Assembly (NCBI RefSeq): GCF_023148685.1
Contig: NZ_JAHXNL010000005.1
Span: 62,001 to 126,000, forward strand
Origin: Georgenia sp. EYE_87
Lineage (GTDB): Bacteria; Actinomycetota; Actinomycetes; Actinomycetales; Actinomycetaceae
Direction: 5' to 3'
DNA: 64,000 nucleotides
The notes below the pieces were generated by a model, which did no database searches, was not told the DNA's origin, and was given only the letters and a program-made list of their open reading frames with translations. The number at the start of each line of letters is the position of its first letter. Within the stretch, counting starts at the first letter, position 1. Positions 953 to 18,120 of this stretch are shown in pieces. Both the position numbers and the translations under genes were made by a program.

Positions 953-986
953 GGGCCGGCCCCGTCCGTACGGATGGGGCCGGCCC
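953..986. terminator. Strong GC hairpin between convergent genes
   Basis: An 11-bp perfect stem (gggccggcccc with ggggccggccc) extends through a G-T wobble and three more pairs to a 4-nt loop. It lies between the stop at 938 and the stop of the minus-strand gene at 1002, so it probably terminates both. It has no long T-tract, which is usual in high-GC actinobacteria. Confidence 0.7.
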
Positions 987-1001
987 GTCGTTCGCCAGCC
1001 G

Positions 1002-2759: not shown

Positions 2760-3113
2760 GTGCTGTCCGGGCGGTTCGGCGCCCGGCTCCTTTCGTGACG
2801 TGGCCGAGGCCGTGGGTGGCTCTACTGGCGCCATTTGGGCAGCGAAGACGGCCTGCACCGTGGCCCCGCTGGAATTCTGGCCGGGAACCGTCGCCGGCGG
2901 AGTGCTTTTACGACTGACATCGGCGCCAATCCGCCGGGCAACAACTGGCAACCGGTGGCCACGGTTCGCCAGGCCGAGGATGGTGACCCACAGCACCCGA
3001 CGTATCGCGACCGTAACCCCGGGGGGACCGGGCCCGGCTCGCGCCGACGGGTGCCACCAGGCATGCGGGCGCTGCCGCCCCATGCGTGAACGAAGGTCAG
3101 AGGGGACCACTTG
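2760..3113. other. Divergent intergenic region upstream of FG-GAP and GH3 genes
   Basis: No gene is supported in these 354 bases. They should hold the promoters for both flanking secreted proteins. An imperfect 16-bp palindrome, TGGCAACCGGTGGCCA (2946-2961), has one mismatched pair and a CG-containing centre as in LacI-family operators; this is a weak suggestion only. An AGAGGGG ribosome-binding site lies just before the GH3 start. Confidence 0.35.
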
Positions 3114-5414
3114 ATGAACGCCAGAACCAGATCGCGGCGCCGGGGGCTGCTCGCGATCGCCGCCGCCGTGCCGCTCACGCTGAGCGCGGCCGGCATCGCC
3201 GTCGCCGACACCGTCACGGCACCCACCACGCAGGCGTCCGACACGGCCGAGCTGCCGTGGATGGACACCTCGCTCTCGCCCGAGCAGCGCTCCGACCTGC
3301 TGGTCGACGCCCTGACGCTGGAGCAGAAGGTCCAGCAGCTGCACGGCAGCTCCGCGCCGACCCCGGAGCTGCTCCCCGAGTGCAACGGCACCAACTCCTC
3401 GGGCGGCTACGGCACGTTCCGCAACGTCACCGGCATCCCGGAGCTGGGCATCCCGACGTTCCGGATCACCAACGGGCCGGTCGGCGTCGGCTACGGCGAC
3501 TGCACGCCGCAGGAGCCGGCGACGGCCCTCCCGGTCGCCCTCGCCCTCGCCGCGGGCTTCGACCCCGACCTCGCCTACCAGTTCGGCGATCTCGCCGGCC
3601 AGGAGAGCCGCACCCTCGGCCTCCACGAGTTCGAGGCGCCCGGCATCAACCTCGCGCGCATCGCCAACGGCGGCCGCAACTTCGAGTACTTCGGTGAGGA
3701 CCCCTATCTCTCCGGCGTGATCGCGGCCGCGGAGGTGAAGGGTGTCCAGGACAACGACGTCATCGCGATGGCGAAGCACTACGTGCTCAACGACCAGGAG
3801 AAGGACCGCGGCAACGTCAGCGTCGAGGTCGACGAGTCCGTGCTGCACGAGCTGTACCTGCTGCCGTTCGAGATGGCCGTCAAGGACGGCGACCTGGGCT
3901 CGATCATGTGCTCGTACAACAAGATCGACGGCGTGTACTCGTGCGAGAACGACTACACCCTCACCACCGTGCTGCGGGACATGTGGGACTTCGAGGGGTA
4001 CGTGCAGTCGGACTTCGGCGCCACGCACTCCACCGCACCGTCGCTGAACGCGGGCATGGACCTCGAGATGCAGAGCGGCCGCTACATGACGATGGCCAAC
4101 ATCGAGGCCGCGCTGGCCGACGGGTCCCTGACCATGGCCACGATCGACCAGGCCCTCGACCGCCGCTACACCCAGATGTTCAAGTACGGCATCTTCGACC
4201 GGCCGATCACCCGCGCCCCGATCAGCCCGGAGAACGGCCAGGTCGCCCGCGAGATCGGCGAGCAGACCTCCGTGCTGCTGAAGAACGAGGGCGACTTCCT
4301 GCCGCTCGACGCCGAGGTCGGCACCATCGCGCTGATCGGGCAGAGCACCTACGTCGACCAGGCCGTCGCCGGCGGCGGCGGCAGCTCCCGCGTCGTCCCG
4401 ACCTACACGGTCGACGCGCTCGAGGGCCTCGAGAACGCCCTCGCCGAGCTCGGCTCGGACGCGACCGTCAACAAGGTCACCGTCGAGAAGGACCTCAGCA
4501 ACCTCGACGCCGCCGTCGCCGCCGCCTCGGAGGCCGACGTCGTCGTCGTCATGGCGGGCCTGGTCACGGCCGAGGGCCGCGACCAGCTCACGGCCGACAA
4601 CAAGCCGATCCTCAACCTGCCCGACAACCAGGACGCGCTGATCTCCGCCGTCGCCGCGGCTAACGCCAGCACCGCCGTCGTCCTCAAGGACGGCGACCCG
4701 GTCCTCATGCCGTGGCTCGACGAGGTGCCCTCGGTCCTCGAGGCCTGGAACCCCGGCCAGGAGGACGGCAACGTCGTCGCCAACCTGCTGTTCGGTCTGG
4801 CGAACCCCTCCGGCAAGCTGCCGGTGACCTACCCGGCGTCGGTGGACGAGACGCCCACCGCGGGCAACGAGGCGGCCTACCCCGGCCTCGACCTCGACGG
4901 CGTGCGGAACTCGCGCGGCAACCTCACCGTGGACGTGGTCCGCTACGAGGAGGGCCGCGAGATGGGCTACCGCTGGTACGACGCCAACGACGTCGAGCCG
5001 CAGTTCTCCTTCGGGCACGGCCTGTCCTACACCGACTTCGAAATCTCGAAGCTGACGGTGACGCCGAAGGTCCAGGACGGCACGAAGGCCATCAAGGTCC
5101 AGTTCTTCGTGGAGAACACCGGCGACGTCGCCGGCGCCGAGGTCCCGCAGGTCTACCTCGGCCTGCCCGAGTCGGCGAACCAGCCGCCCAAGCGCCTCGT
5201 GGGGTTCGACAAGGTCGAGCTGAAGCCGGGCGAGAAGCAGCACGTCTCCATCACCATCGACCCCGCCGCCAGCAACCACCCGCTGTCCGTGTGGGACGCC
5301 GAGGCCGACGCGTGGACGACGCCGGAGGGTGAGTTCGACGTCTACGTCGGCAACTCCTCCGACAACATCACGCTGCAGGAGACCGTCACCGTCCGCACAC
5401 CCGCGGGCCGCTGA
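3114..5414 (+). CDS. Secreted glycoside hydrolase family 3 (beta-glucosidase-like)
   Basis: 766 residues from the ATG at 3114 (a TTG directly before it is less likely). It starts with RSRRRGLL and a hydrophobic stretch, a Tat- or Sec-type signal. The GH3 N-terminal barrel follows: FRITNGPVGVGYGDC, then KHYVLNDQEKDR and SIMCSYNKIDG. The nucleophile loop is VQSDFGATHS, with the predicted catalytic Asp at residue 300. The GH3 C-terminal domain follows, then a fibronectin III-like domain (VENTGDVAGAEVPQVYLG) near the end. It should release beta-linked glucosyl or related residues outside the cell. Substrate specificity cannot be read from the sequence. It stands alone, divergent from the FG-GAP protein and followed by two terminator hairpins. 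Confidence 0.92.
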   Translation: MNARTRSRRRGLLAIAAAVPLTLSAAGIAVADTVTAPTTQASDTAELPWMDTSLSPEQRSDLLVDALTLEQKVQQLHGSSAPTPELLPECNGTNSSGGYGTFRNVTGIPELGIPTFRITNGPVGVGYGDCTPQEPATALPVALALAAGFDPDLAYQFGDLAGQESRTLGLHEFEAPGINLARIANGGRNFEYFGEDPYLSGVIAAAEVKGVQDNDVIAMAKHYVLNDQEKDRGNVSVEVDESVLHELYLLPFEMAVKDGDLGSIMCSYNKIDGVYSCENDYTLTTVLRDMWDFEGYVQSDFGATHSTAPSLNAGMDLEMQSGRYMTMANIEAALADGSLTMATIDQALDRRYTQMFKYGIFDRPITRAPISPENGQVAREIGEQTSVLLKNEGDFLPLDAEVGTIALIGQSTYVDQAVAGGGGSSRVVPTYTVDALEGLENALAELGSDATVNKVTVEKDLSNLDAAVAAASEADVVVVMAGLVTAEGRDQLTADNKPILNLPDNQDALISAVAAANASTAVVLKDGDPVLMPWLDEVPSVLEAWNPGQEDGNVVANLLFGLANPSGKLPVTYPASVDETPTAGNEAAYPGLDLDGVRNSRGNLTVDVVRYEEGREMGYRWYDANDVEPQFSFGHGLSYTDFEISKLTVTPKVQDGTKAIKVQFFVENTGDVAGAEVPQVYLGLPESANQPPKRLVGFDKVELKPGEKQHVSITIDPAASNHPLSVWDAEADAWTTPEGEFDVYVGNSSDNITLQETVTVRTPAGR

Positions 5415-5421
5415 CGCGGGC

Positions 5422-5501
5422 GGCCCGGACGGCACCCCAACTGCCGCCGTCCGGGCCACCCGACCCCGAGGCCCCCGAACCGCTCCTGGTTCGGGGGCCT
5501 C
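5422..5501 (+). terminator. Two consecutive terminator hairpins after the GH3 gene
   Basis: Hairpin 1 is a perfect 12-bp stem (ggcccggacggc at 5422-5433 with its complement at 5446-5457). Hairpin 2 is a perfect 14-bp stem (gaggcccccgaacc at 5468-5481 with its complement at 5488-5501). Both directly follow the stop codon at 5414. Confidence 0.8.
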
Positions 5502-5628
5502 CGTCGTGCCGTGGCGGCGCGCCGGTGATCAGCCTCGGTCACGCAGATACCGGGCCACCTCGCTTCGCCTACCATTCTCCCAAGCCTGCGCCGAGGACGG
5601 CGCGGTCGTCGCGGTCGCTGGAGGTGCC

Positions 5629-6387
5629 ATGACGGCAAGCGTGCGCTCTGTCGCCAAGGCCGCCGCTCTTCTCCAGGCGTTCAACCGCGAGCACCAGGTG
5701 CTGACGGTTCGAGAGCTCGCGGCCGCCACCGGAATCCCGCGCAGCACCTGTCACGCCCTGTGCCAGACGCTCGTGGAGACGGGCCTGCTCGAGATCCACG
5801 ACGTCGAGGGATACCAGCTCGGGCGGTCTCTCGCGATGCTCGGTGGTCAGGTGATCGAGCGAACCGGTCTCATCGACGCCGCCGTCGGCCCTGCCTCGAC
5901 GATCCTGGCGAACACCCGCACCGAGATCCACGTCGCTCAGTACGTCCCCACCGGGATCGTCTACCTGCTCCGCCTGCAGAACGGCCGCCGGCTGCCCAAC
6001 CAGAACAAGACCGGCAGGCACTGGCCGCTTCACACGAGCGCCTGCGGCATGGCCGTCTACGCCGCCCTCCCAGAGGCTGCCCGCGAGAAGCACGCGCGTG
6101 ACCTGCCTGAGCAGAGCCTCACCGCCCTCACCGACGCGTCCCGCGACTTCCTGCGCCACGGCTACGTCATCTCCAACATCAGCCAGGAGGGCTTCCGCAG
6201 CGTCGGCGCCCCCATTCTCGACCAGCACGGCGAGGTGGTCGGGGCCATCGGCACGGGCGACGCACGAACGCTGATGACGCCGGCCCGCACCCACGAGATC
6301 GGGCTGGCGGTGCGCCGGACCGCCGAGGCGATTTCACGGGGGCTCGGGTTCCTGCCGTCTTTCACGCCCGGCGGGCGCCGAGGTTGA
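5629..6387 (+). CDS. IclR-family transcriptional regulator
   Basis: 252 residues from the ATG at 5629, preceded by GGAGG. The N-terminal winged helix-turn-helix is clear: SVAKAAALLQAF, LTVRELAAATGIPRSTCH, then LVETGLLE. A C-terminal IclR effector domain follows, with the typical HTSACGMAVYAALP segment and a late region containing GAPILDQHGEVVGAIG. This start is chosen because upstream in-frame sequence reads through the terminator hairpins and does not look like protein. It is the first gene before the M24-hyuB-hyuA-permease genes in the same direction, so it is the likely regulator of that set. IclR proteins commonly sense small aromatic or carboxylic ligands. Confidence 0.9.
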   Translation: MTASVRSVAKAAALLQAFNREHQVLTVRELAAATGIPRSTCHALCQTLVETGLLEIHDVEGYQLGRSLAMLGGQVIERTGLIDAAVGPASTILANTRTEIHVAQYVPTGIVYLLRLQNGRRLPNQNKTGRHWPLHTSACGMAVYAALPEAAREKHARDLPEQSLTALTDASRDFLRHGYVISNISQEGFRSVGAPILDQHGEVVGAIGTGDARTLMTPARTHEIGLAVRRTAEAISRGLGFLPSFTPGGRRG

Positions 6388-6415
6388 CGGCTTCGGGCGG
6401 GTCTGTCCGTATCTG

Positions 6416-6470
6416 GTGTCCAGCGATGCCGGACACGACGTGTGCTCCAGGTCACATCGCTTCCTAACGT
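6416..6470 (+). promoter_or_regulatory. Possible operator and leaderless promoter for the M24-hyu operon
   Basis: An inverted repeat GTGTCC-(9 nt)-GGACAC occupies 6416-6436. A -10-like TAACGT lies at 6465-6470, only six bases before the ATG at 6477. No ribosome-binding site precedes that ATG, which fits a leaderless transcript. The -35 region is not convincing. Confidence 0.4.
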
Positions 6471-6476
6471 CACCCC

Positions 6477-7688
6477 ATGGCTATCGACACCGCGCTCGCA
6501 GCGCCACACTCCACCCTCCCGGACAATCCCATCCAGTCCCTCGCGGAACGAGACCTGCGTTGGGCCCGTCTTCACGCCGCCATGGAGAGCGAGGGCTACG
6601 ACGCCCTGCTGTTCGCGGCCGCCGACTACCGGGGCCACAAGGGAAGCCTCCGTTACATCTCCAACTACAACCTCTGCCACCGTTACGGCTACGCCGTGAT
6701 GTTCGCCGGCGAGGAGCCGATCGTCGTGCTTCCCCAGAACCTCGAGGCGGACCGGCGGCCGGCGTCCCGGTGGGTCAGCGACTACCGCTTCCCGTACAAC
6801 CTCGGGTCGGGGCTCGCGGAGATCCTCTCCTCCAAGGGCACACACCTCAAGGTCGGCATCGTCGGCCTAGGTCAGGTGATGAAGGTCGAGGACTACCTCG
6901 CTGTCACGACGGCGCTGCCCACCAGCACGTTCGAGGACGCCTCGGCGCTGTTCGACCGGGTCCGCGCGATCAAGAGCCCGGCCGAGCTCCGCGCCGCCGG
7001 GGAGGGCGCCTACATCCTCGACGCCTGCTTCGACCGTCTGCTCGAGGTCGCCCGCCCTGGGATGACCGAGCAGCAGGTCGCCGCCGAGATGTTCCACGTC
7101 GGGTCCCGGCTCGGCGGGCAGGACCCGCTCTTCCTCACCATGTATGCGGAGCAGTGGGGCGAGACCGCGCGCGCCACCTTCGGCCAGCCGGAGGACCGGG
7201 TGCTCGGCGTCAACGACGTCTTCACGTTCTCCTACGAGATCGTCGGCCCGTCCGGCTACTGGGTCGAGCTCTCCCGGATGGTGACCTTCGCACCGCCCAG
7301 CGACGCCGTCGGGCACATCGGGAACGCCGTGGCCCTCGGGATGGAGGCGGCACGCGCCGCCCTCACGCCGGGCACCCCGCTCGGGGACGTCCAGCGCGAG
7401 GTCATCTCGGCCGTCGAGGCGCAGGGCGCCCGGTCCGAGTACTGGTCCGGGCACGGACTCGGCATGGACGTCCTGGAGGAGCCGTGGGTCGGCCTCGACG
7501 TCGTCCAGGACTCCGGCAAGGCCGGCGCGGTCACGACGACGGAGTCCGGCATGGTCCTGACCATCCACCCCACGCTGTGGGACGAGACCACCCGTGCCAT
7601 GGGGTACATGGCCAACACGTTCGTCATCGACGACGGCGGAGCGAAGGCGCTCTCCCGTCACCCCGTCACCATCCACACGATCTCCTGA
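6477..7688 (+). CDS. Creatinase/aminopeptidase-P fold (M24) hydrolase lacking the metal ligands
   Basis: 403 residues. Residues about 20-170 form the creatinase-type N-terminal domain and about 175-400 the pita-bread M24 domain. The catalytic-region His is retained (SGHGLGMDV, H326). The dinuclear-metal ligands of peptidases are not: the two Asp positions read as Glu (E254 in FSYEIVG and E264 in YWVELSR). The Glu of the usual GM..TIEP motif is His (H364 in GMVLTIHPT), and the last Glu is missing near MANTFVID. This resembles metal-independent creatinase more than Xaa-Pro peptidase. It lies just ahead of hyuB and hyuA, so it may hydrolyse the ring-opened product of those enzymes. That assignment is inference. 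Confidence 0.75.
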   Translation: MAIDTALAAPHSTLPDNPIQSLAERDLRWARLHAAMESEGYDALLFAAADYRGHKGSLRYISNYNLCHRYGYAVMFAGEEPIVVLPQNLEADRRPASRWVSDYRFPYNLGSGLAEILSSKGTHLKVGIVGLGQVMKVEDYLAVTTALPTSTFEDASALFDRVRAIKSPAELRAAGEGAYILDACFDRLLEVARPGMTEQQVAAEMFHVGSRLGGQDPLFLTMYAEQWGETARATFGQPEDRVLGVNDVFTFSYEIVGPSGYWVELSRMVTFAPPSDAVGHIGNAVALGMEAARAALTPGTPLGDVQREVISAVEAQGARSEYWSGHGLGMDVLEEPWVGLDVVQDSGKAGAVTTTESGMVLTIHPTLWDETTRAMGYMANTFVIDDGGAKALSRHPVTIHTIS

Positions 7689-7698
7689 AGGGCTGCTC

Positions 7699-9471
7699 AT
7701 GACCACCACCACACCCGGGGTCGACCCGATCCTGGCCTCGGTCCTCCAGCGGCGGCTGGACGCGATCTCCAAGGAGATGGCGACCCTGCTAATGCGCTCG
7801 TCGCGCTCGCCGATCTTCAACGAGATCGGCGACCTCGTCACCGTCATCTTCGACGCAAAGGGTCGCACCCTGGCCCAGGCGGAGTACGCCGCGATCATCG
7901 CCTTCGGCGCTCGCCCACCGCTGGACTACATCATCGAGTACTTCGGTGACGACATCCACGAGGGCGACGTCATCATCCACAACGACGTCTTCACCGGCGG
8001 TAACCAGAACGCCGACACCGGCATCTACATGCCGATCTTCCACGACGGCGAGCTGATCGCCTGGTCCGCGTCGAAGGGCCACCTGGCCGACGTCGGCGGC
8101 ATGACCGCCGGCGGCTACGACCCCAACGCCCGAGAGGTCTGGCAGGAGGCCTTCCGCATCCCGCCCGCGAAGATCTACGAGAGCGGGCTCGTCCGCAAGG
8201 ACGTGTGGGACCTCGTGTCGGCGAACATCCGGTTCGACTTCGTCATGGAGGACGTCAAGGCGATGGTCGGCGCCTGCGAGATCGGCCGGCGCCACGTCCA
8301 GGCGCTCGTCGCCCGCTACGGCCGCGAGCGCTTCGACGCCCACATGCAGTACGTCATCGACAGCTCGGAGCGTCAGGTCCGGGCCGAGATCCGCCGGTGG
8401 CCCGACGGCGTGTACCGCGGCGAGAGCGAGATGGTCTCGGACGGCATCGACCCGACCGCGCGCTACCGCATCGCGTGCGAGATCACCATCGCGGGCGAGG
8501 AGATCACCTTCGACTTCTCGGAGACGGACGACCAGGCGCCCGGCTTCACCAACATGCCGCCGGCGTCGGCGTCGGGTGCGGTGCGCATCGCGTTCCTCAT
8601 GCTCGTGGCCGCCGGCGGCGTCGTGATCCCGACCAACGAGGGGCTCTTCGCCCCGATCCGCACGGTCTTCCGCGAGGGCTCTCTGCTCAACCCCCGGTTC
8701 CCGGCAGCGACGATCTTCGGCAACCAGATGAGCGACGAGATTCTGGAGTGCGTCATGAGCGCGCTCGCCGAGGCGCTGCCCGACCGTGTTACCGCTGGCT
8801 GGGCCAAGTACATGACGACGGCGTTGCACGGCACCGACCCCGCGACCGGCGAGCCGTACGTCACCCTCACGGTGTTCCAGCGCACCGGCCCAGGCGCCAT
8901 GAGCGGAGCTCACGGCTGGGACGCTCTGGGCTTCTCCGGCACCGCCGGCCAGATGCGCTCCGCCGACCCCGAGATGTTCGAGATCACCTCGCCGCACTTC
9001 ATGGAGTACCACGAGTACCTGACGGACTCCGCGGGTCCGGGTCAGTGGCGAGGTGGCCTGGGCACCAGGTCCGCCTGGCGCAGCGACGGCGTCCACGCCC
9101 ACGGCGTGACGATGGGTGAGGACATCGAGGCCGAGGGCGCGACCCCGGGCCTGGGCCTGTACGGCGGTCACGACGCCGGCCTGAACCGCATGCTGCTGGA
9201 GTTCCCTGACGGCACCACGAAGGAGTGGGGCTCGAAGGAGATCGTCGACCTGCCTCCGGGCACGGTGATCCGCTCCTGGTGCGGGGGCGGCGCCGGCTAC
9301 GGCGACCCCTTCGAGCGCGACGCCGACGACGTAGCCGACGAGGTCCGCGCCGGCCTGCTGTCGGCCGACAAAGCAGCCGACGCGTATGGCGTCGTGGTGC
9401 ACCCCGAGACGCTGGAGCTGGACGAGTCCGCCACCGCCACGGTGCGTGGCGCTGAGAAGGAGCAGAACTGA
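7699..9471 (+). CDS. hyuB: Hydantoinase/oxoprolinase subunit B
   Basis: 590 residues from the ATG at 7699 (MTTTTPGVDPILASVLQRRL); the preceding GAAGGG is its ribosome-binding site. It shows the family pattern: IFNEIGDLVTVIFD, then GDVIIHNDVFTGGNQNAD, SKGHLADVGGMTAGGYDP, and late GAGYGDPFERD. HyuB pairs with HyuA to perform ATP-dependent hydrolysis of a cyclic amide, such as 5-oxoproline, hydantoin or N-methylhydantoin. The length is normal for HyuB. It begins 10 bases after the M24 stop and its stop overlaps the hyuA start by one base, so the two are translationally coupled. Confidence 0.93.
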   Translation: MTTTTPGVDPILASVLQRRLDAISKEMATLLMRSSRSPIFNEIGDLVTVIFDAKGRTLAQAEYAAIIAFGARPPLDYIIEYFGDDIHEGDVIIHNDVFTGGNQNADTGIYMPIFHDGELIAWSASKGHLADVGGMTAGGYDPNAREVWQEAFRIPPAKIYESGLVRKDVWDLVSANIRFDFVMEDVKAMVGACEIGRRHVQALVARYGRERFDAHMQYVIDSSERQVRAEIRRWPDGVYRGESEMVSDGIDPTARYRIACEITIAGEEITFDFSETDDQAPGFTNMPPASASGAVRIAFLMLVAAGGVVIPTNEGLFAPIRTVFREGSLLNPRFPAATIFGNQMSDEILECVMSALAEALPDRVTAGWAKYMTTALHGTDPATGEPYVTLTVFQRTGPGAMSGAHGWDALGFSGTAGQMRSADPEMFEITSPHFMEYHEYLTDSAGPGQWRGGLGTRSAWRSDGVHAHGVTMGEDIEAEGATPGLGLYGGHDAGLNRMLLEFPDGTTKEWGSKEIVDLPPGTVIRSWCGGGAGYGDPFERDADDVADEVRAGLLSADKAADAYGVVVHPETLELDESATATVRGAEKEQN

Positions 9472-11588
9472 TGGGTATCCGAATCGGCATCGACGTCGGC
9501 GGCACGTTCACCGACTTCCTCGTGGTCCGGCCCGACGGCAACCGGATCGTCCACAAGACCTCCTCGATCCCCTCCGACCCCGCCCGTGCGGTCACCCAGG
9601 GCCTGCGGGAGATCGCCGAGAACCTGGGGCAGACCGTCGAGGACTTCCTCGCCGGCGTGGACACGATCGTCCACGGGACCACGGTGGCCACGAATGCGCT
9701 CCTGACGCGCCGCGGCGCCCACACCGGGCTGCTCGTGACCGAGGGCTTCCGCGACGTGCTGCCGCTACGTGATGGCACGCGTGAGGAGGCGTACGACAAC
9801 CGCCTCGAGGCTCCCGCGCCACTGGTCAGCCGCGAGGACACGGCACCAGTGCCCGGCCGCCTGACCGTTCGCGGCGAGGAGGTGACCGCCCTCGACGAGG
9901 ACGTGGTGCGACAGGCCGCCCGCACCTTCCGCGAGAAGGGAATCGGCGCTGTCGCGGTCTCGTTCATGCACTCCTACACGGACGAGCGGCACGAGACACG
10001 GGCCGCTCAGATCCTCGAGGAGGAGCTGCCCGATGCCTACATCACCCGGAGCTCGGAGCTCCTTGCGCAGGCGCGCTACTACGATCGCACGAGCACCACG
10101 GTCCTGAACTCCTACGTGGGCCCGATCATCCGCGAGTACATCCGCGTGCTGACCACCACCCTTGAGGAAGCCTCGTTCCGTGGGGTCCTGCTCCTCATGC
10201 AGTCCAACGGCGGCGTCGCGACCCCGGAGGAGCTCAGCGCCCGCGCGGCCCTGTCCCTGCTCTCCGGTCCCGCCTCGGGACCGACCGCCGGACTGCTCGA
10301 GGTCGCGGCGCACGGCTGGGACCGCTGCCTGACCGTCGACATGGGCGGGACGAGCTTCGATGCCGCCATCGTCGAGGGCGGCCGCCCGCTCGTCATGACC
10401 GACGGCACGATCGACCGCTGGCGCATCGCCCTGCCGATGGTGGACATCCACACCATCGGCGCCGGAGGCGGCAGCATGGCCTCGGTCGACGACGGCGGCA
10501 TGCTCCGGGTCGGTCCGCAGAGCGCCGGGGCGGTACCTGGACCCATCTCCTACCGTCGTGGCGGAACAGTGCCCACGACCACGGACGCCGACGTCGTCCT
10601 CGGCTACATCTCGTCGTCGAGCTTCCTGGGCGGTGGGATGAGCCTCGACGTCGACGCGGCGCGCGAGGCGATCGCCGAGCAGATCGGCAAGCCGCTGGGC
10701 CTGGACGCCACCCAGGCCGCGGCAGGCATCTACGACGTCGTGAACGTCTCAATGGCCGCCGGCGTCCGCGAGATCACCGTGCGCCGTGGCCTGGACCCGC
10801 GGGACTTCCCGATCGTCGTCGCCGGCGGTGCGGGTCCCGTCCACGCCGCCGCCATCGCGCGAGAGCTCGAGATCCCCCTGCTCGTCGTTCCGCGCGAGTC
10901 CTCGATCTTCTGCGCGGCCGGCATGCTCGTGTGCGACTTCAAGCACGACTTCGTCCAGAGCCAGCGCTGGAACCTCGCGGACATCGACTCCGCCGAGCTG
11001 ACGGGGATCTGGCGCTCCATGGCCGAGCGCGGCCGCACCACGCTGCACGGTGAGGGCGTGACGGACGAGCGCATCGAGTACTCCCCGTCCCTCGACATGC
11101 GCTACAAGGGACAGTGGTTCGAGATCAACGTTCCGCTGCCCCAGGGCGCCCTGAACAGGTTTGACCTGACGGCCGCGGCACGGGAGTTCCACCGCCTGCA
11201 CGACGTCCAGTTCGGTTACCACACGGACGAGATGCCGATCGAGGTGCTCAACATCCGGCTTTCGGCCACCGGCCGTGTGGCCGGCTCCAGCGGCGACCAG
11301 ACGTGGGGCGGCGCCTCGCACGAGTCGGCGCTGATCGGCACGCGCGAGATCTGGTCGCCCGCTCAGCGGCGGATGGTCAAGGCCGACGTCTACGCGGGGC
11401 AGCACCTGCGGCCCGGCGACGAGGTCGCCGGTCCCGCCATCATCGAGCTCGGCACGACGAGCATCGTCGTCCTCGACGAGTACGACGCCGTTGTCGACGT
11501 CACCGGATCGTTCGTCCTCTATCTGCGCAGCCGCGCCGAGGAGATGCGGGCGCGCATCGTGACCGGGAGCTCAGCGGTCACCGCCTGA
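9471..11588 (+). CDS. hyuA: Hydantoinase/oxoprolinase subunit A (ATP-binding)
   Basis: 705 residues. The ATG at 9471 shares its A with the hyuB stop. The N-terminus IGIDVGGTFTDFLVV is the actin-like ATPase phosphate-binding loop of the HyuA family, and VHGTTVATNALL follows. A second ATPase segment is TVDMGGTSFDAAIVEGG, with IGAGGGSMA and GPQSAGAVPGP downstream. The C-terminal portion has the usual IIELGTTSIVV. HyuA activates the cyclic amide with ATP and HyuB completes hydrolysis. The permease downstream, the M24 hydrolase upstream and the absence of other oxoproline genes make a hydantoin-type ring plausible, but specificity is not visible in the sequence. Confidence 0.93.
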   Translation: MGIRIGIDVGGTFTDFLVVRPDGNRIVHKTSSIPSDPARAVTQGLREIAENLGQTVEDFLAGVDTIVHGTTVATNALLTRRGAHTGLLVTEGFRDVLPLRDGTREEAYDNRLEAPAPLVSREDTAPVPGRLTVRGEEVTALDEDVVRQAARTFREKGIGAVAVSFMHSYTDERHETRAAQILEEELPDAYITRSSELLAQARYYDRTSTTVLNSYVGPIIREYIRVLTTTLEEASFRGVLLLMQSNGGVATPEELSARAALSLLSGPASGPTAGLLEVAAHGWDRCLTVDMGGTSFDAAIVEGGRPLVMTDGTIDRWRIALPMVDIHTIGAGGGSMASVDDGGMLRVGPQSAGAVPGPISYRRGGTVPTTTDADVVLGYISSSSFLGGGMSLDVDAAREAIAEQIGKPLGLDATQAAAGIYDVVNVSMAAGVREITVRRGLDPRDFPIVVAGGAGPVHAAAIARELEIPLLVVPRESSIFCAAGMLVCDFKHDFVQSQRWNLADIDSAELTGIWRSMAERGRTTLHGEGVTDERIEYSPSLDMRYKGQWFEINVPLPQGALNRFDLTAAAREFHRLHDVQFGYHTDEMPIEVLNIRLSATGRVAGSSGDQTWGGASHESALIGTREIWSPAQRRMVKADVYAGQHLRPGDEVAGPAIIELGTTSIVVLDEYDAVVDVTGSFVLYLRSRAEEMRARIVTGSSAVTA

Positions 11589-11595
11589 GGCGAAC

Positions 11596-11621
11596 GGCGG
11601 GCGGGCTCCGGCCCGCCCGCC
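11596..11621 (+). terminator. Terminator hairpin after hyuA
   Basis: A perfect 11-bp GC stem (ggcgggcgggc, loop tccg, gcccgcccgcc) starts eight bases after the hyuA stop. It may attenuate rather than end transcription, because the permease follows 100 bases later on the same strand. Confidence 0.7.
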
Positions 11622-11722
11622 ACACCCGGCGCCGACTCAGGGCGCCACCCACCCAACCGGACGGGCGCGATCCCACGTGCCCCGGTCGAGCCTGCCCACC
11701 GAGCCGAATTCAAGGGAGAATC

Positions 11723-13201
11723 ATGAGCTCCGAGCGACAGAACAGCACCACTCTCCGCGCACAGATGGAGGACAACGTCCTCAACCCCGTCGCAGACGAA
11801 GAACGTCAGGGCGGTTGGTCGCTGCTCTCCAACACCGCCGGCGTCGGCACCACTCTCGCGATGCTGCTGATCGGCGGGTCGGCCAGCTACATCGTCGGCG
11901 TGAAGTGGGCCATCGCGATGTCCGTCGTCTCCGCCGTCTTCGGCTCCGTCGTCGGGAGCCTCACCGGCCGGGTCAGCCAGAGCACCGGAATGTCCTCCAC
12001 CGTCACCACCCGGTTCCACGGCCTCGGTGCGACGGGCTCGGCCCTTGCGTCATTCGTGTTCGCGTGGATGATCCTCAGCTTCCTCGCACTCGAGAACGTC
12101 CTGCTCTACAACGGGACACTGTTCATGCTCGGATGGGCGCCGACCGTCGCCAACACCATCGGCATCTACGGCGCCCTCACGGTGCTGTGGATCCTGCTGG
12201 CGCTGTTCGGGGTCAAGCTCGTGCAGAAGACCTCGCTGATCCTGACCCTCATCGCCGGCGCCCTCATGGTCGTGGTCGGCTTCCTCGCGTTCAGCCGCTC
12301 CGATCTCGGCGTCGGACAGGTCTTCGCGGTCCAGCCCGAGCACGTGGGGCCCGCCGAGATCATGGGGGTGCTCGCCACCATGGTTGGCATGGCCGGGGCG
12401 CTTGCCCTCACGGGGGCCGACTTCGCCCGGTACGCCCGCACCAGCCGGGACGTGCGAATCATGGCCGTCGGTGGGAATGTCATCGTCAACTTCGGGGTCG
12501 TCTCGCTGGGCGCACTGCTCTACCAGGCGGGCGACACCGTGGTCGCACGGTTCCTCGAGGACCCGGCGAACGCGGGCGTCGCCGCTGCGCAGGCCGGTGC
12601 CGGCACGGCGGAGAAGGTGCGCTTCCTGGCCGAGACCAACGCCGGCGCCTACTTCATCCTGCTCGCCGGGGTCGTGGGCTTCCTCGTGATGTACGCGGCA
12701 CAGGTCAAGGCGCAGGTGATCAACGTCTACGCCGGTTCGCTGTCGCTGACGAACCTGGTTGACGCGCTCCTCGGCCGCAAGGTGAGCCGCATCCTGATGG
12801 TGCTGCTCGGCAACGCGATCGCACTCGTCGCCGTCTGGGGCGGGATTCTCGGCTTCCTGGCTCAGTTCCTTGGCGCACTGGGCATCGCAACGTTCTCCCT
12901 CGCCGCACTTGTGATCACGGACTTCTACGTGCTGCGCCGCCAGCAGGCGGCACCGACAGACCGTGTGGAGCGCATGAACTGGGCTGGGCTGATCGCCGTC
13001 GCCGTCGGATTCGGGACGTCCTACCTGCTCCTTGTCACCGGTGTGTTCGTCCTCGGGTTCGTGATCACGCTGGTGCTCACGCCGCTTGTGTACGTGGTGC
13101 TGCGCCGGACCGTTCTGCCCGAAGGCCGCGGAACCACCTTCGTGGCTGGCACGGCAGCCCTGAGGGAGGTCGAGGTTCTGGACGAGGTGTCCGCCGTCTA
13201 G
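11723..13201 (+). CDS. NCS1-family permease (cytosine/allantoin/hydantoin type)
   Basis: 492 residues from the ATG at 11723, preceded by AAGGGAG. About twelve hydrophobic segments run from residue 30 to 475. The first part (GGWSLLSNTAGVGTTLAMLLIGGSAS) is typical of nucleobase:cation symporter-1 proteins, as is GADFARYARTSRD in the middle. NCS1 carriers import purines, cytosine, allantoin, thiamine or hydantoins with H+ or Na+. Placement downstream of hyuB/hyuA suggests it imports the cyclic amide those enzymes open. A bidirectional terminator follows. Confidence 0.88.
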   Translation: MSSERQNSTTLRAQMEDNVLNPVADEERQGGWSLLSNTAGVGTTLAMLLIGGSASYIVGVKWAIAMSVVSAVFGSVVGSLTGRVSQSTGMSSTVTTRFHGLGATGSALASFVFAWMILSFLALENVLLYNGTLFMLGWAPTVANTIGIYGALTVLWILLALFGVKLVQKTSLILTLIAGALMVVVGFLAFSRSDLGVGQVFAVQPEHVGPAEIMGVLATMVGMAGALALTGADFARYARTSRDVRIMAVGGNVIVNFGVVSLGALLYQAGDTVVARFLEDPANAGVAAAQAGAGTAEKVRFLAETNAGAYFILLAGVVGFLVMYAAQVKAQVINVYAGSLSLTNLVDALLGRKVSRILMVLLGNAIALVAVWGGILGFLAQFLGALGIATFSLAALVITDFYVLRRQQAAPTDRVERMNWAGLIAVAVGFGTSYLLLVTGVFVLGFVITLVLTPLVYVVLRRTVLPEGRGTTFVAGTAALREVEVLDEVSAV

Positions 13202-13228
13202 TCCCGAGTCGCAGAAAGGCAGCGACGC

Positions 13229-13265
13229 CGTCGGCGTCCAGGGCACCACGTCCTGGACGCCGACG
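13229..13265. terminator. Bidirectional terminator between convergent genes
   Basis: A perfect 14-bp stem (cgtcggcgtccagg at 13229-13242 with cctggacgccgacg at 13252-13265) with a 9-nt loop separates the permease stop from the stop of the minus-strand nucleotidase. Confidence 0.8.
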
Positions 13266-13279
13266 GGTCGACCCGGGCG

Positions 13280-15139
13280 TCACGCTCCCGTGACCTCCAC
13301 CGGCACGTCGTCGGCGGTCAGCTTCCAGTCCATCGTCGAGAACGTCGCCGGGTCGATCTGCCCCTGCGCGCTCACCCAGTCGATGATCAGCTGCCGGATC
13401 TCCTGCTGGGCGTTGTAGACCACCGGCGCCGTCGTCACGCCCGGGAAGTTCCCGCCGCCGGACTGGCGGTAGTTGTTGATGGCGATGACGAACCGCTGTG
13501 CCGGGTCGATGGGTGCGCCGTCGTACTGCAGGTTCTTGACCCGTGCCCCGGGCGCCTGGGCGATGTCGATGTCGTAGGTCAGCCGCGCGGTGTAGCCGGC
13601 CATGGTGTCGTAGTTGTAGTCCGGGGTGCCGCTGGGCGCGGTGGCGGTGACGGCGTTGGTGATGTCGTCCGGCGCGTGCGGCCCCGCGCCCGTCACCTGC
13701 TTGAAGTAGCGGGCGGAGAACTCGAGGTAGGCGCGCACCTGCTCGCCGGTGAGCACGATGCCGAGCAGGGTGTTGTCGAAGATGTACATCCCCGCCACGT
13801 CCCGCACCGTCACCTCCCCCGCCGGGATCGCCGCGGCCCGGTTGAACGGCGCGGAGATCGACAGGACCGGCAGCGCCGCCTCCGGCGTGCCCGCGAGCGC
13901 CCGAGCCACCTCGGCGGACTGGACGTGGTTGACGAAGTCCATCGCCGCGGTGTCCTCGTAGCGGGACGTCGCTGCGGACATCGCCGCCGCGGAGGTGCCG
14001 ATCACCGAGTTGACGTACCCGCGCACGGTGGCGTGGTCGCCGCTGAGGAGGGCGACGATCGCCGGGTCCTCCGGGACGGTGTTGGCGTTGAGCAGGTGGG
14101 CGCCGGCGGCGCCGACCTGCCACCGGCCGCGCACCTTGACCAGGTCCAGGTCCATCACGGTCAGCCGCATGCCCCAGCGCAGCGGCTCCGAGAGCAGCAC
14201 CTGCTTGCCGGTCTGGGCGTTGGTGACGAAGCGCTGCGGGATCTCCAGGTGCGCGTGGCCCACGAGGATGGCGTCGATGTCCGGCACCTGCTCGGCGAGC
14301 AGGGTGGAGGCGTTCTCCGGGTAGGGCAGGGCGTCGCCGTAGGAGCTGGAGGTGTTCGGCCCGGAGTGGCAGGAGACGACGACGATGTCCGCGCCCGCCG
14401 CCTTCATCCGCGGCACGAAGACCTTCGCCTGCTCGACGATGCCGGGGAAGCGCACCTTGCCCTCGACGATCGCCTTGTCCCAGATGGCGACGCCGGGCGT
14501 GACCAGCCCGAGCACGCCGACGGTGAGCTTGCGTCCGCCCTCGGGGTTGATCGTGTGCAGGCTGTAGGGCTGGTAGACGGTCTCGCCGGTGTTCCAGTCC
14601 ACGGCGTTGGCGCACAGCAGCGGGAAGTTCAGCTGCCGGTCGAAGGTGTCGAGCACGTCGAGGCCGTAGTTGAACTCGTGGTTGCCCATCGCGGCGGCGT
14701 CGAAGCCGATGGCGTTCATCGCCGCGGCCATCGGGTGGACGTGCCCGCCGGTGATCGGGTCGATCTTGGCGTAGTAGTAGGACAGCGGCGTGCCCTGGAT
14801 GGTGTCGCCGGCGTCGAGCAGCAGGCAGTTCCCCGCGCCGCGCTCGGCCCGCATCGCGGCGACCAGCGTGGAGATCTTCGCCAGGCCGATGTCGTTCTTC
14901 GCGCCGTCGTCGTACTCGGCGTCCTTGAAGTAGTCCCAGTTGAGGACGTTGCCGTGGGTGTCGGTCGTCCCCAGCACGGTGAGCCGGTAGGTGTGCTTGT
15001 CCGCGGGCGGTGCGGCGTGCGCGGGCGCGCCGGTCAGCGCGGTGCCCGCGGCCCCCAGGGCGGCGAGCTGCAGCAGCCGCCGCCGGCTCACCTCCGTGCC
15101 GAGCATCGCCTTGTGGGCGGACAGAGCGTTGTGGTCCAT
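13280..15139 (-). CDS. Tat-exported 5'-nucleotidase / 2',3'-cyclic phosphodiesterase
   Basis: 619 residues from the ATG at 15139, with GAGGAG just upstream. The N-terminus contains SRRRLLQLAALGAAG, a twin-arginine signal, with APAHA near residue 44. The metallophosphoesterase domain is complete: GTTDTHGNVLNW, LLLDAGDTIQGTP, MGNHEFNYG (Tyr where Asp is commoner), VVSCHSGPNT and ILVGHAHLEIP. The C-terminal nucleotide-binding domain carries the substrate region near INNYRQSGGGNFPG. It should dephosphorylate nucleotides or cyclic nucleotides outside the cell for phosphate and nucleoside salvage. It is monocistronic, divergent from the IclR gene at 15296. Confidence 0.9.
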   Translation of the reverse strand: MDHNALSAHKAMLGTEVSRRRLLQLAALGAAGTALTGAPAHAAPPADKHTYRLTVLGTTDTHGNVLNWDYFKDAEYDDGAKNDIGLAKISTLVAAMRAERGAGNCLLLDAGDTIQGTPLSYYYAKIDPITGGHVHPMAAAMNAIGFDAAAMGNHEFNYGLDVLDTFDRQLNFPLLCANAVDWNTGETVYQPYSLHTINPEGGRKLTVGVLGLVTPGVAIWDKAIVEGKVRFPGIVEQAKVFVPRMKAAGADIVVVSCHSGPNTSSSYGDALPYPENASTLLAEQVPDIDAILVGHAHLEIPQRFVTNAQTGKQVLLSEPLRWGMRLTVMDLDLVKVRGRWQVGAAGAHLLNANTVPEDPAIVALLSGDHATVRGYVNSVIGTSAAAMSAATSRYEDTAAMDFVNHVQSAEVARALAGTPEAALPVLSISAPFNRAAAIPAGEVTVRDVAGMYIFDNTLLGIVLTGEQVRAYLEFSARYFKQVTGAGPHAPDDITNAVTATAPSGTPDYNYDTMAGYTARLTYDIDIAQAPGARVKNLQYDGAPIDPAQRFVIAINNYRQSGGGNFPGVTTAPVVYNAQQEIRQLIIDWVSAQGQIDPATFSTMDWKLTADDVPVEVTGA

Positions 15140-15282
15140 TGCCTCTCCTCGTCGAGATACAGACCCAGCGTCGCGCTGGGCGACTGCTCGTGGCAGTGGG
15201 GAGAAACGTAGTCCCGGCCGGGCCGCCCGGGCCGAGTTTTGGGACGACGTCGTCCCCCCGGACCGCTGTTCTGCGCCCGGGC

Positions 15283-15304
15283 TAGGCTGTCTGCTGTGCA
15301 GACA
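15283..15304 (+). promoter_or_regulatory. Leaderless -10 and 17-bp palindromic operator at the iclR start
   Basis: The -10-like TAGGCT (15283-15288) lies seven bases before the GTG start at 15296, with no ribosome-binding site, as in leaderless actinobacterial genes. The perfect palindrome TGTCTGC-TGT-GCAGACA (15288-15304) overlaps the start codon. The last 15 bases of this palindrome recur exactly at 18949-18963, upstream of the aldolase gene. This fits autorepression by the IclR protein. Confidence 0.6.
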
Positions 15305-16063
15305 CCGGAGCGCGCCGCCCCGCTCTACCCCATCGAGGGCATCGACCGCGCGCTGCGCGTGCTCCTGCTGTTCAAGGACCGGCGCGAGCTGACCCTGTCC
15401 GAGGTGCGGGAGCACCTGGACGTCGGCCACTCCACCGCGCACCGGCTCATGGCGATGCTCCTCTACCGGGGCTTTGCGGTCCAGGACGACCGCACGCGCG
15501 CGTACCGGGCCGGCCCGGAGCTGTTCAACATCGCCTCCGCCGTCGCCGACACCTTCGACCTGCGCACGGCGGCCCGGCCGGTGCTGGAGCAGCTCGCGCG
15601 CCAGACGGGCGAGACCGTCCACCTCGGCACCCTGCAGGGACCGGAGGTGCTCTACGTGGACTGCGTCGAGAGCCCCGCGCTGCTGCGCGTCAGCGGCCGC
15701 GTCGGCAAGCTGACGCCCGCGTACGCCTCCAGCCTCGGCAAGGCGATGCTCTCGACGCTGACGGACGAGTCGGTGCTGTCGCTCTACCCCGCCCAGCTCG
15801 AGCAGCTGACCGAGCGGACCCTCGGGAGCCGGGCCGCGCTGCTCGAGTCGCTGCGGCAGGTCCGCGGCGCCGGCTTCGCCCGCAACCGCGAGGAGGTCGA
15901 GCTGGGCGTCGCCTCCGTGGCGGTCGCCGTGCTGCCGTCGTCGCGGTCATCGGTCGCGGCCCTGAGCGTCGCGGCGCCGCTCTCGCGGACGTCGCCGGAG
16001 CGCACGGACGACCACGTCGCGCTGCTCCGGCTCGCCTCCGAGAGGCTGGCCGCGTCGATCTGA
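15296..16063 (+). CDS. IclR-family transcriptional regulator
   Basis: 255 residues from the GTG at 15296 (VQTPERAAPLYPIEGIDRAL). The start is supported by the leaderless -10 box. The winged helix-turn-helix is in residues about 12-75 (LTLSEVREHLDVGHSTAHRL, then RGFAVQDD). The IclR effector domain follows, with GETVHLGTLQGPEVLYVD and YASSLGKAMLSTL. It is convergent with the decarboxylase-like gene at 16069, only five bases away. Its start overlaps an operator that is repeated upstream of the aldolase gene, so it probably controls the minus-strand set 16069-18846 and itself. Confidence 0.9.
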   Translation: MQTPERAAPLYPIEGIDRALRVLLLFKDRRELTLSEVREHLDVGHSTAHRLMAMLLYRGFAVQDDRTRAYRAGPELFNIASAVADTFDLRTAARPVLEQLARQTGETVHLGTLQGPEVLYVDCVESPALLRVSGRVGKLTPAYASSLGKAMLSTLTDESVLSLYPAQLEQLTERTLGSRAALLESLRQVRGAGFARNREEVELGVASVAVAVLPSSRSSVAALSVAAPLSRTSPERTDDHVALLRLASERLAASI

Positions 16064-16068
16064 CGGGG

Positions 16069-17058
16069 TCAGATGAGCGTGGCGCTCTCGGCGTTCGGGG
16101 CGAACAGCTGCTCCGGCCGCCAGTCGCGCCGCGCGAGGCCCTGCTGCCGGGAGTAGCGGAGGAAGGTCTCCAGGACAGCCCGGTTCGGCTCCAGGCCGTA
16201 GCTCCAGTACCGCTCCCCCATGACGGCCTGGGTCTCCTCGACGTGGTCGGCGAGCCAGGGCAGCATGACCGCGAGGGAGCTGCGGTACATCAGCGCGTCG
16301 TGGGCCCGGCGGAGCGAGGCCTCGAACGCCTTCATCAGGGACCGGGCGATCCAGGGCTGGCGCTCGTAGACGTCACGCCGCAGGGCGACGACGTGCATGA
16401 TCGGGAACACGCGGGTGCGGCGGAAGTAGTCCTGCTCCACCGCCTTGTAGTCGCCGAACAGCCGGACGACCTTCTCGCTCGAGTAGAAGACCTCGGGGAC
16501 GTGCGCGGTGAGGAGCGCGTCGATCTCGCCGGCCACCAGCAGGTCCGAGAGCGTCCGGCCCTGCGGCGCCGCCGTGAGGTCGACGTCGGGCGGCAGGTCG
16601 AGGCTGATCTTCTCGGTCCGCCCGGCGTGCTCGACGCCGCCGGTGACGTACCGCAGCGACCGGTGGTCGACGCCGTACTCGTCCTGGAGCATCCCGCGCT
16701 GCCACACGCCCGCAGTGATCTGGTACTCCGGCACCCCCACCCGGCGCCCGGCGAGGTCCTCCGGCCGGCGGATGCCGCTGTCGGCGTTGACGAACATCGT
16801 CTGGTGACGGAAGTACCGGGAGGGGAAGACGGGGATCGCCACGAGCCCCGGGTCGCTCTGCTCGAGACTGAGGACGTAGGAGGACAGGCTCATCTCGCTC
16901 AGGTCGAACTCGTGGTTCGTGAGCTGGCGGTAGAAGATCTCCTCCACGGGCAGGTCGATGACGTTGAGGTCGATCCCCTCGGGCTGCACGGACCCGTCCC
17001 GCAGGGCGGCGAAACGGTCGCAGCTGCTGCCCGCGAAGGACAGCTGCAGTCTGCTCAC
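16069..17058 (-). CDS. 4,5-dihydroxyphthalate decarboxylase-like (Pht5 family) protein
   Basis: 329 residues, the usual length of the family. The GTG start (VSRLQLSFAGSSCDRF) is eight bases after the stop of the binding-protein gene. Family-like segments include DGSVQPEGIDLNVIDLP, LSEMSLSSYVLSLEQ, LAGRRVGVPEYQITAGVW and DALLTAHVPEVFY. Pht5 proteins share a periplasmic-binding-protein fold, are cytoplasmic and lack a signal peptide, as here. Members are annotated as aromatic-diacid decarboxylases or as solute-binding-like proteins, so the reaction is uncertain. The neighbours (NMT1 binding lipoprotein, class II aldolase-type decarboxylase, IclR) favour catabolism of a hydroxylated aromatic diacid. 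Confidence 0.75.
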   Translation of the reverse strand: MSRLQLSFAGSSCDRFAALRDGSVQPEGIDLNVIDLPVEEIFYRQLTNHEFDLSEMSLSSYVLSLEQSDPGLVAIPVFPSRYFRHQTMFVNADSGIRRPEDLAGRRVGVPEYQITAGVWQRGMLQDEYGVDHRSLRYVTGGVEHAGRTEKISLDLPPDVDLTAAPQGRTLSDLLVAGEIDALLTAHVPEVFYSSEKVVRLFGDYKAVEQDYFRRTRVFPIMHVVALRRDVYERQPWIARSLMKAFEASLRRAHDALMYRSSLAVMLPWLADHVEETQAVMGERYWSYGLEPNRAVLETFLRYSRQQGLARRDWRPEQLFAPNAESATLI

Positions 17059-17066
17059 CGGGCGCC

Positions 17067-18056
17067 TCAGGGAAGGATCGTGTCGAGGTCGGGCTCCTCG
17101 TCGAGCGTCCCGAACTCGACCGCCTTCTGCCCGAGGAGCTCCGCCGCCTCGCGGCTGAACTCGGGGCGGAACACCGGGATCGTCATGCGCTCGAGGACGT
17201 CGGGCTCGATCTCGGTGTAGGTGCCCACGATCTCCCGCACGGCGTCGGGGTTCTCCTGGGAGTACTCCAGCGACCGGTTCATGGCCGTGCGGAAGCTCTC
17301 CACGAGCTCGGGGTCCTCGTCGATGAGCGACTGGGTGGTGAAGACGCACGAGATGTCGAGCTCGGGGTGGAACTCGGAGAAGTTGTAGGAGAGCACGCGG
17401 GCCCCGCTGTCCAGCGCCTCGGTGAGGAACGGCTCCAGGATCCACGCCGCGTCCACCTGGCCGAGCTCGAGCGCGGCCGGCGCCTCGGAGAACGGCACCT
17501 CGACGAACTTCACGGCGGCGGCGTCGCCGCCGGCCTCGTCGACCACGGTCCGGATCGTCGTGTCGCCGATGTTCTCCAGGGTGTTGACCGAGACGGTCCT
17601 GCCGCCGAGGTCGGCGACGCTCTGGATCGGGGAGTCACCGGTGACCACGACCGCGCCGATGTCCGGCTCGCCCGCCGTGGAGTTGGCGTTGGCGATGCAC
17701 CTCAGGTCCAGGCCCTGCTCGACGGCGAGCATGGTCGAGAGGAGGTTGCCGCGCCCGAACTGGTAGGTGCCCGACACCACGCTGGGGACCACGGCGGCGC
17801 CGCCGCCGGCGGACTCGATCTCGAGGTCGATGCCCTCCTCCTCGAAGAAGCCCTCCTGCTTGCCGAGGTAGAGCGGGGCGGAGTCGACGATGGGCTGGGT
17901 GCCGATGAGGACCGGCGTGAGCCCGTCCTGCGGTGCGCCGGTGCCACCGGCTCCCTCGGTGGCGGCCGGGGTGGCGCCGTCGTCCCCCGAGCAGGCGGCG
18001 AGCGCGAGCGCGAGCGTGACGAGACCGGCGGCGGTGACGGGGATGGATCGATTCAC
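17067..18056 (-). CDS. NMT1/THI5-type ABC substrate-binding lipoprotein
   Basis: 329 residues. The signal peptide ends in the lipobox LAAC, giving a lipid-anchored Cys near residue 22, followed by an acidic, Gly/Ala-rich linker. The mature domain resembles nitrate/sulfonate/aromatic binding proteins: YLGKQEGFFEEEGIDLEIE, then ADLGGRTVSVNTLENIGD and AWILEPFLTEAL. It should capture a small anionic ligand for an ABC importer. No permease or ATPase gene lies in this cluster, so it is an orphan binding protein. The nearest suitable partners in the window are at 32763-34431. It is transcribed with the aldolase upstream and the decarboxylase-like gene downstream. Confidence 0.88.
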   Translation of the reverse strand: MNRSIPVTAAGLVTLALALAACSGDDGATPAATEGAGGTGAPQDGLTPVLIGTQPIVDSAPLYLGKQEGFFEEEGIDLEIESAGGGAAVVPSVVSGTYQFGRGNLLSTMLAVEQGLDLRCIANANSTAGEPDIGAVVVTGDSPIQSVADLGGRTVSVNTLENIGDTTIRTVVDEAGGDAAAVKFVEVPFSEAPAALELGQVDAAWILEPFLTEALDSGARVLSYNFSEFHPELDISCVFTTQSLIDEDPELVESFRTAMNRSLEYSQENPDAVREIVGTYTEIEPDVLERMTIPVFRPEFSREAAELLGQKAVEFGTLDEEPDLDTILP

Positions 18057-18120
18057 GGTGGGCTCCTCGGTGAGTGGTGGGAGTGGTGGCCGACGCGGGG
18101 GTGACGACGGCGGTGCGGGC

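Follow-up and report, generated by a model that had tools for sequence, protein, structure and literature searches.

The gene trio M24-HyuB-HyuA, present in a 64,000-nt stretch of the soil bacterium Georgenia sp. EYE_87 (contig NZ_JAHXNL010000005.1, positions 62,001 to 126,000; hereafter the window, numbered from its first letter), can be set beside several described systems. According to the accessible text of PMC8453981, caprolactamase consists of two subunits; A carries the ATP motifs DxGGTxTD, DxGGT, and GxxPGP, and B binds metal through Asp-His-Asp-His. ARO-type bacterial microcompartment (BMC) loci have been published in both a 2-aminophenol and a catechol type; as far as the accessible text of that report goes, their precursor is unknown, HyuA/HyuB is the sole candidate upper-pathway enzyme with an unclear role, and encapsulation may be directed by an extension of 30-35 residues at the N-terminus of dioxygenase beta (PMC10470539). 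For skatole, the accessible text of PMC13101512 describes a 14-gene cluster, skaCDZEFGHAIJKRLB, in Rhodococcus aetherivorans DMU1 and R. ruber R1, with skaA of 1368 bp and skaB of 531 bp, 7058 bp downstream. The main text of this skatole report gives no match for peptidase, hydantoin, or oxoprolinase, and "peptidase" is likewise absent from the main text of the ARO report. No paper pairing M24 proteins with hydantoinases was found in the open-access literature, as judged from search listings.

The stronger finding of this analysis is that M24-HyuB-HyuA, as a shared ring-opening module, occupies positions in two aromatic pathways that are published but have no assigned role. In the window, the trio lies between a regulator gene and a permease gene, as follows.

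5629-6387 (approximate; start by manual count, open reading frame from 5329), + strand, IclR-family regulator (Pfam HTH_IclR and IclR_C)
6477-7688, + strand, M24 (pita-bread) protein (Pfam Peptidase_M24 83.5 bits, Creatinase_N 36.1)
7699-9471 (ATG at 7699 by manual count), + strand, HyuB, metal-hydrolysis subunit of the lactamase (Hydantoinase_B 460.5 bits)
9471-11588, + strand, HyuA, ATP-binding subunit (Pfam Hydantoinase_A 284.1 bits)
11720-13201, + strand, NCS1-type permease (Transp_cyt_pur 28.6 bits against a cut-off of 23.5, a weak score)

The open reading frames (ORFs) and Pfam domains bear out the gene order IclR, M24, hyuB, hyuA, NCS1 permease given in an initial annotation made from the sequence alone. 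Ten bases separate the M24 stop from the HyuB start, and the reading frames of HyuB and HyuA overlap. The same five-gene set stands together in two further Georgenia genomes (G008, locus L030; G007, locus L058), where IclR is at the equivalent position with 73-75% identity. Among named relatives, Georgenia sp. SYP-B2076 lies closest to the window.

Positions of the trio in skatole, ARO, and related loci

Locus L032 comes from Rhodococcus aetherivorans, the species of the published skatole cluster. Its skaA (8634-10001, 1368 bp) and skaB (17059-17589, 531 bp) have coordinates 7058 apart, and 14/14 ORFs follow the published ska order, skaZ being represented by an ORF of 91 residues and skaG by a ferredoxin; several of these 14 genes were named by reading or similarity rather than by family scan. 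Between skaA and the LuxR gene skaR there are exactly three genes, M24, HyuB, and HyuA, which we infer to be skaI, skaJ, and skaK.

The second pathway is represented by a locus of Nocardioides soli (L031), which carries two trios.

766-17814, ARO-type locus in the order M24-HyuA-HyuB, two BMC shell genes, one EutN/CcmL gene, 2-hydroxymuconic semialdehyde dehydrogenase, decarboxylase-like gene, M24-HyuB-HyuA, IclR, dioxygenase beta, dioxygenase alpha, transporter genes

The two M24-Hyu trios flank the shell genes, which Pfam assigns to PF00936 (two) and PF03319 (one), and the semialdehyde dehydrogenase scored 788.9 bits with TIGR03216 (cut-off 693.25). Dioxygenase beta matched 7txy_B at 1.9e-148 over residues 1-320, N-terminal extension included, and alpha matched 7txy_A at 2.5e-90. 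7TXY, the ARO dioxygenase of Micromonospora rosaria, matched the L031 subunits ahead of non-BMC enzymes; the non-BMC chains 3vsg and 8ihg align with beta from residue 36, without the extension. Relatives of this beta subunit were found in 0/394 genomes of the window's class and in 1/294 of L031's family, the one being N. soli itself. This ARO-type locus belongs to the Nocardioidaceae, beyond the orders named in the accessible text of PMC10470539.

Both L031 M24 N-termini (MSSVFHPPIGDRTW and MTRVFRVPHGGDGA) resemble the N-terminus of dioxygenase beta (MSNVFRVPVGDRTW), and such a tag-like N-terminus is absent from the L031 HyuA/HyuB proteins and from the other M24 proteins viewed. The pattern M..VF..P.G, composed after inspecting these three N-termini, occurs three times in L031, precisely at the N-termini of the two M24 proteins and dioxygenase beta, and 0 times in six frames of 14 other stretches (325,343 bases). 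Because M24 has the dioxygenase's tag and HyuA/HyuB do not, M24 is probably microcompartment cargo beside the dioxygenase in N. soli.

A contig scan yielded 11 loci, ten with M24 orthologs at 51-81% identity and one with a 24% relative (L040). The co-occurrence of M24 with HyuB/HyuA, checked in the ten named orthologous loci (L030 to L039), held in 10/10, with M24-HyuB-HyuA synteny throughout. In 8/10, spread over five genera, the trio is adjoined by genes for the large and small Rieske subunits, a glutamine synthetase-like protein, and a glutamine amidotransferase, which we take, from their gene content, to be an aniline-dioxygenase-like set. A similar ferredoxin reductase accompanies 7/8 of these sets; the reductase of L032, read by eye, differs. 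Catechol 1,2-dioxygenase and a SkaA-like monooxygenase are each found in five of the ten named loci. Neighbor families were scanned on representative proteins, and annotation covers part of the neighbors. Catechol 1,2-dioxygenase scored above its cut-off, and ring-hydroxylating subunits, glutamine synthetase, glutamine amidotransferase, and reductase were identified, as were muconate-cycloisomerase-like, styrene-monooxygenase-like, short-chain dehydrogenase/reductase (SDR), and flavin reductase proteins. No creatinine- or sarcosine-type gene was among the annotated neighbors, no search aimed at such genes being made.

Three arrangements were distinguished. In arrangement I (L032, L034, L035, L037, and L039, the last also with NCS1), a SkaA-like gene, the Rieske subunits, the glutamine synthetase-like gene, the amidotransferase gene, and the trio are found. 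Arrangement II (L033, L036, and L038) has the Rieske subunits, the glutamine synthetase-like and amidotransferase genes, the trio, and NCS1; no SkaA match was found in the genomes of these three loci. Arrangement III, the trio without the Rieske set, comprises L030 and the window, both with NCS1, and L031. The NCS1 permease gene is 3' of HyuA in five of the ten named loci and in one more Georgenia genome. The permease that the initial annotation placed beside the trio thus stands after HyuA in three Georgenia genomes and in 4/9 other named loci.

The order M24-HyuA-HyuB, seen in L031, recurs in L051. Plasmid stretches H31 and H37 contain HyuA/HyuB; their gene table, which is incomplete, lists no M24, and tblastn detected none in them. 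Strong M24 orthologs (E < 1e-100) were present in 3/59 relatives, in 2/297 genomes of the window's order, in 1/396 of its phylum (the window itself), and in 2/245 of L031's order, these genome samples overlapping.

The lactamase, the M24 protein, and the permease

The ATP motifs of the Georgenia HyuA are intact: DVGGTFTD (8), DMGGT (290), and GAVPGP (353). HyuB was searched and numbered from 7696, one codon before the ATG; its HND (95) and KGHLAD (127) align with the CapB ligands His99, Asp102, and His124, and the fourth ligand, Asp41, falls at a conserved Asp in the alignment as read by eye. The best NCBIfam family for HyuA/HyuB was caprolactamase (CapA 674.8 bits, CapB 361.4 bits, both below the equivalog cut-off of 1000). 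Caprolactamase 6yra was matched better than N-methylhydantoinase 7hk5 (3e-136 for HyuA and 3e-78 for HyuB), both matches being strong. These features suggest that HyuBA should act as an ATP-dependent lactamase, whose substrate is not readable from the family score. The coupling of M24 to such a lactamase, proposed initially, is supported by the synteny and the intact motifs; the hydantoin type proposed for HyuBA is not, the best scores being to the caprolactamase subunits. In a HyuA tree, Georgenia grouped with the ska- and ARO-linked HyuA (9-row group, support 98/99), with no resolved branching inside the group.

In the M24 protein, the canonical D-D-H-E-E set reads E254, E264, H326, H364, and A379. 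The alignments confirm what had been noticed at the outset, namely Glu for Asp at two ligands, His364 for Glu, loss of the last Glu, and retention of His326, and the departure from D-D-H-E-E agrees with the earlier statement that this is not a standard Xaa-Pro peptidase. E254, E264, H326, and H364 are kept in 12/12 aligned sequences (the window protein, the ten named orthologs, and one paralog), down to 27% identity in the paralog. In a wider set, 18/29 M24 proteins carry this E-E-H-H quartet, including ~30% relatives from other actinobacterial families; the remaining 11 have canonical or other residues, some being partial sequences with gaps. The 24% relative in L040 is without the quartet. 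Because the quartet is invariant in 12/12 relatives, the site appears rebuilt rather than lost, and we regard the E-E-H-H M24 proteins as a distinct subfamily on the basis of these alignments. Simple decay was ruled out by the same invariance. The initial annotation called the protein metal-site-less, a description that is presumptive, since a single metal ion could still be bound by the two Glu and two His that occupy ligand positions.

The AlphaFold model of the M24 protein (predicted local distance difference test score, pLDDT, 83.6) has the M24 pita-bread fold, with a less certain H326 block (mean pLDDT 73). Its best structural match by VIA-align was the ectoine hydrolase DoeA (Z 38.3, 361 residues, 2.4 A), followed by prolidase 5cde (Z 36.6) and creatinase 1chm (Z 35.9); prolidases in general gave Z ~33-37 across 330-360 residues. 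Foldseek alone ranked prolidases and DoeA at the top, and the dimethylsulfoniopropionate (DMSP) lyase DddP was among the structural matches listed. The suggested likeness to creatinase stands as a close match at the level of the fold alone, and a common fold shows no function. Membership in the DoeA family was rejected (TIGR02993 63.6 bits against a cut-off of 613).

An E-E-H-H M24 gene also occurs in L045 (7372-13060), after a ketopantoate-reductase-like gene and beside LuxR, SkaA-like, and SDR genes. The reductase-M24 pair is also present in L047 (by Pfam) and L048 (by reading).

The NCS1-type permease, above its Pfam cut-off, scored 40.8 with TIGR00800 (cut-off 353), and no solved chain, Mhp1 included, matched it by sequence at E 0.1. 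It is a probable heterocycle importer.

Proposed reactions and competing explanations

In the reading that we lean toward, judged from motifs and gene neighborhoods, M24-HyuB-HyuA serves to break down benzo-fused N-heterocycles that contain a ring amide or a cyclic carbamate. The candidate substrates would be of the oxindole, benzoxazolinone, or benzoxazinone type. HyuA would phosphorylate the lactim oxygen using ATP, and HyuB, at its metal site, would hydrolyze the ring so activated to give an ortho-substituted aniline. The E-E-H-H M24 protein would then act after HyuBA and just ahead of the dioxygenase, freeing the amine (aniline or aminophenol); it is placed there because of the N. soli tag and the match of the dioxygenase to 7TXY. 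In skatole degradation, the ring-opened form of 3-hydroxy-3-methyloxindole would be 2-(2-aminophenyl)-2-hydroxypropanoate, which M24 may split by a retro-aldol-type cleavage into aniline and pyruvate. Aniline release by M24 would fit the aniline-dioxygenase-like set and the catechol 1,2-dioxygenase nearby. In ARO loci, a benzoxazinone or benzoxazolinone would yield 2-aminophenol, with M24 co-encapsulated with the dioxygenase. Release of 2-aminophenol from benzoxazolinone or benzoxazinones is known, and 6-methoxybenzoxazolinone (MBOA) is converted to an aminophenol by BxdA. In Georgenia, the NCS1 permease would import the ready-made heterocycle and IclR would control the unit. DddP may be a precedent for a lyase on the M24 fold; among the substrate class, the order of steps, the role of NCS1, and the reaction of M24, the last is the least certain. 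A further, joint reading is offered tentatively and is itself doubtful: the E-E-H-H M24 proteins may form a new enzyme subfamily, in which two His and two Glu perhaps bind a single metal; they may release aniline or aminophenol once the ring of an N-heterocycle is open, and travel as ARO cargo. M24 with HyuBA may then supply the missing ARO upper pathway as well as those steps of skatole degradation in actinobacteria that have no assigned enzyme.

Several observations weigh against this reading of the module. Among the loci, the three from Cryobacterium and the two from Arthrobacter are closely related. Only 1/8 of the distant M24 stretches has HyuA/HyuB (one stretch is only 3.5 kb), and L045 has its E-E-H-H M24 with SkaA-like and SDR genes and no HyuA/HyuB in 18 kb; M24 and HyuBA are therefore separable. 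In L032, M24 comes directly after skaA, overlapping it by four bases, and before HyuBA. The Georgenia M24 has no N-terminal tag, the tag pattern was drawn from the N-termini that it describes, and the gene separating the 2-aminophenol from the catechol ARO type was not recognized among the L031 ORFs read, no family search aimed at it being made. In the window's genome (G000), no SkaA match was found, and the best Rieske match is half-length at 38% identity. A relative of the ARO dioxygenase was not found in the three Georgenia genomes searched, G000 included, with a query that does recover N. soli. G007 and G008 carry a SkaA-family match at 30-32%, away from the trio. The Georgenia trio may feed a different lower pathway or serve nitrogen supply.

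Some of these observations would also suit a reversed order, in which M24 acts before HyuBA and hydrates or hydrolyzes a ring C=N (imine or amidine), preparing the lactam much as ectoine hydrolase opens a cyclic amidine. The M24-skaA overlap in L032, the gene company of M24 in L045, and the rank of DoeA as best structural match (Z 38.3) all point this way, but the N. soli tag, on both M24 proteins and not on HyuA/HyuB, puts M24 next to the dioxygenase, and we consider the reversed order possible rather than probable. Somewhat less probable is that the Georgenia module has switched to a simple lactam taken up from outside, of the caprolactam or pyrrolidone kind, with no relation to aromatics. 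The best NCBIfam family of HyuA/HyuB and the lack of ska or ARO companions found in G000 are consistent with it, but in the HyuA tree the Georgenia protein groups with those linked to ska and ARO.

The pathway put forward in the initial annotation, in which NCS1 imports an N-methylhydantoin-like ureide, HyuBA converts it to N-carbamoylsarcosine, and a creatinase-like M24 hydrolyzes the ureido group, is compatible with the 7hk5 matches, with the closeness of creatinase 1chm to the M24 model, and with the known NCS1 carriers of hydantoin. It is not supported, since the conserved neighbors elsewhere are genes of aromatic-amine and skatole oxygenation (the aniline-dioxygenase-like set in eight of ten loci) and of aminophenol/catechol meta-cleavage (the ARO locus L031), and oxindole-type lactams have no ureido group. 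The conserved aromatic-amine neighbors rule it out as the best reading; we give it little credence, and a hydantoin pathway in Georgenia is unlikely. Equally improbable, in our estimate, is that M24 serves HyuBA as an accessory subunit without catalytic activity. Its canonical metal set is indeed incomplete, and caprolactamase, with its two subunits (PMC8453981), does not need a third for catalysis, but the four charged pocket residues are invariant down to the 27% paralog, and the N. soli M24 has a tag that is missing from HyuA/HyuB.

The preferred reading, a module for the catabolism of benzo-fused N-heterocycles, could fill two steps open in print, namely the lactam ring opening of oxidized skatole in Rhodococcus, and the ARO feed compound with its enzymes. 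With the same module in both pathways, and standing alone beside its own permease in Georgenia, both questions can be tested via three genes. The tag common to M24 and the dioxygenase predicts that an M24 protein travels inside the microcompartment. Conservation of the quartet suggests an M24 subfamily whose active site is not that of a peptidase and for which no assigned function was found.

Other genes in the Georgenia genomes deserve mention. G000 has a second HyuA, 38% identical, in L065 (G000 C1 26001-46000), whose neighbors, named by reading, are HyuB, a Rieske oxygenase, an extradiol-dioxygenase-like gene, and a beta-keto-acid-cleavage-like gene; in G007 and G008, similar HyuA and Rieske matches lie ~8-9 kb from each other. 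The HyuA homologs of G005 and G006 have one internal TGA in each HyuA-like frame. On the - strand of the window, 16072-34431 holds genes resembling aromatic catabolism: a dihydroxyphthalate-decarboxylase-like protein, named by reading (no NCBIfam match), a class II aldolase somewhat similar to 3,4-dihydroxyphthalate decarboxylase, a flavin adenine dinucleotide (FAD) hydroxylase, an enol-lactonase-like hydrolase, a probable carboxymuconolactone decarboxylase (by reading), an IclR gene, and NMT1/SsuA-type transporter genes. Window positions 52001-64000 have a G+C of 0.56-0.61, against ~0.70 before, and are possibly a foreign island.

Comparison with known systems

CapAB (6yra), in the accessible text of PMC8453981, has its sequence family, ATP motifs, and metal-site residues in common with the Georgenia HyuBA, whereas HyuBA scores below the CapA/CapB equivalog cut-offs and has an M24 gene attached. 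DoeA/EutD and creatinase are M24-fold non-peptidases and are the best and a very near structural match, respectively, to the Georgenia M24 model. The two ectoine-linked M24 proteins in L041 differ from the Georgenia E-E-H-H at the four sites, and no Hyu gene was listed or found in that stretch. The Georgenia genomes differ from the ARO BMC locus in the ARO dioxygenase, of which they gave no relative; in L031, the trio stands beside shell genes, a semialdehyde dehydrogenase, IclR, and a 7TXY-like dioxygenase, and HyuA/HyuB are noted at ARO loci in PMC10470539. From the ska cluster, Georgenia differs in that its trio is accompanied by IclR and NCS1, and in that G000 gave neither a SkaA match nor a Rieske subunit close to the ska type. 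Common to the two is M24-HyuB-HyuA itself, which we place at positions I, J, and K in L032, where the 14 genes match the cluster of PMC13101512 in order, sizes, and spacing.

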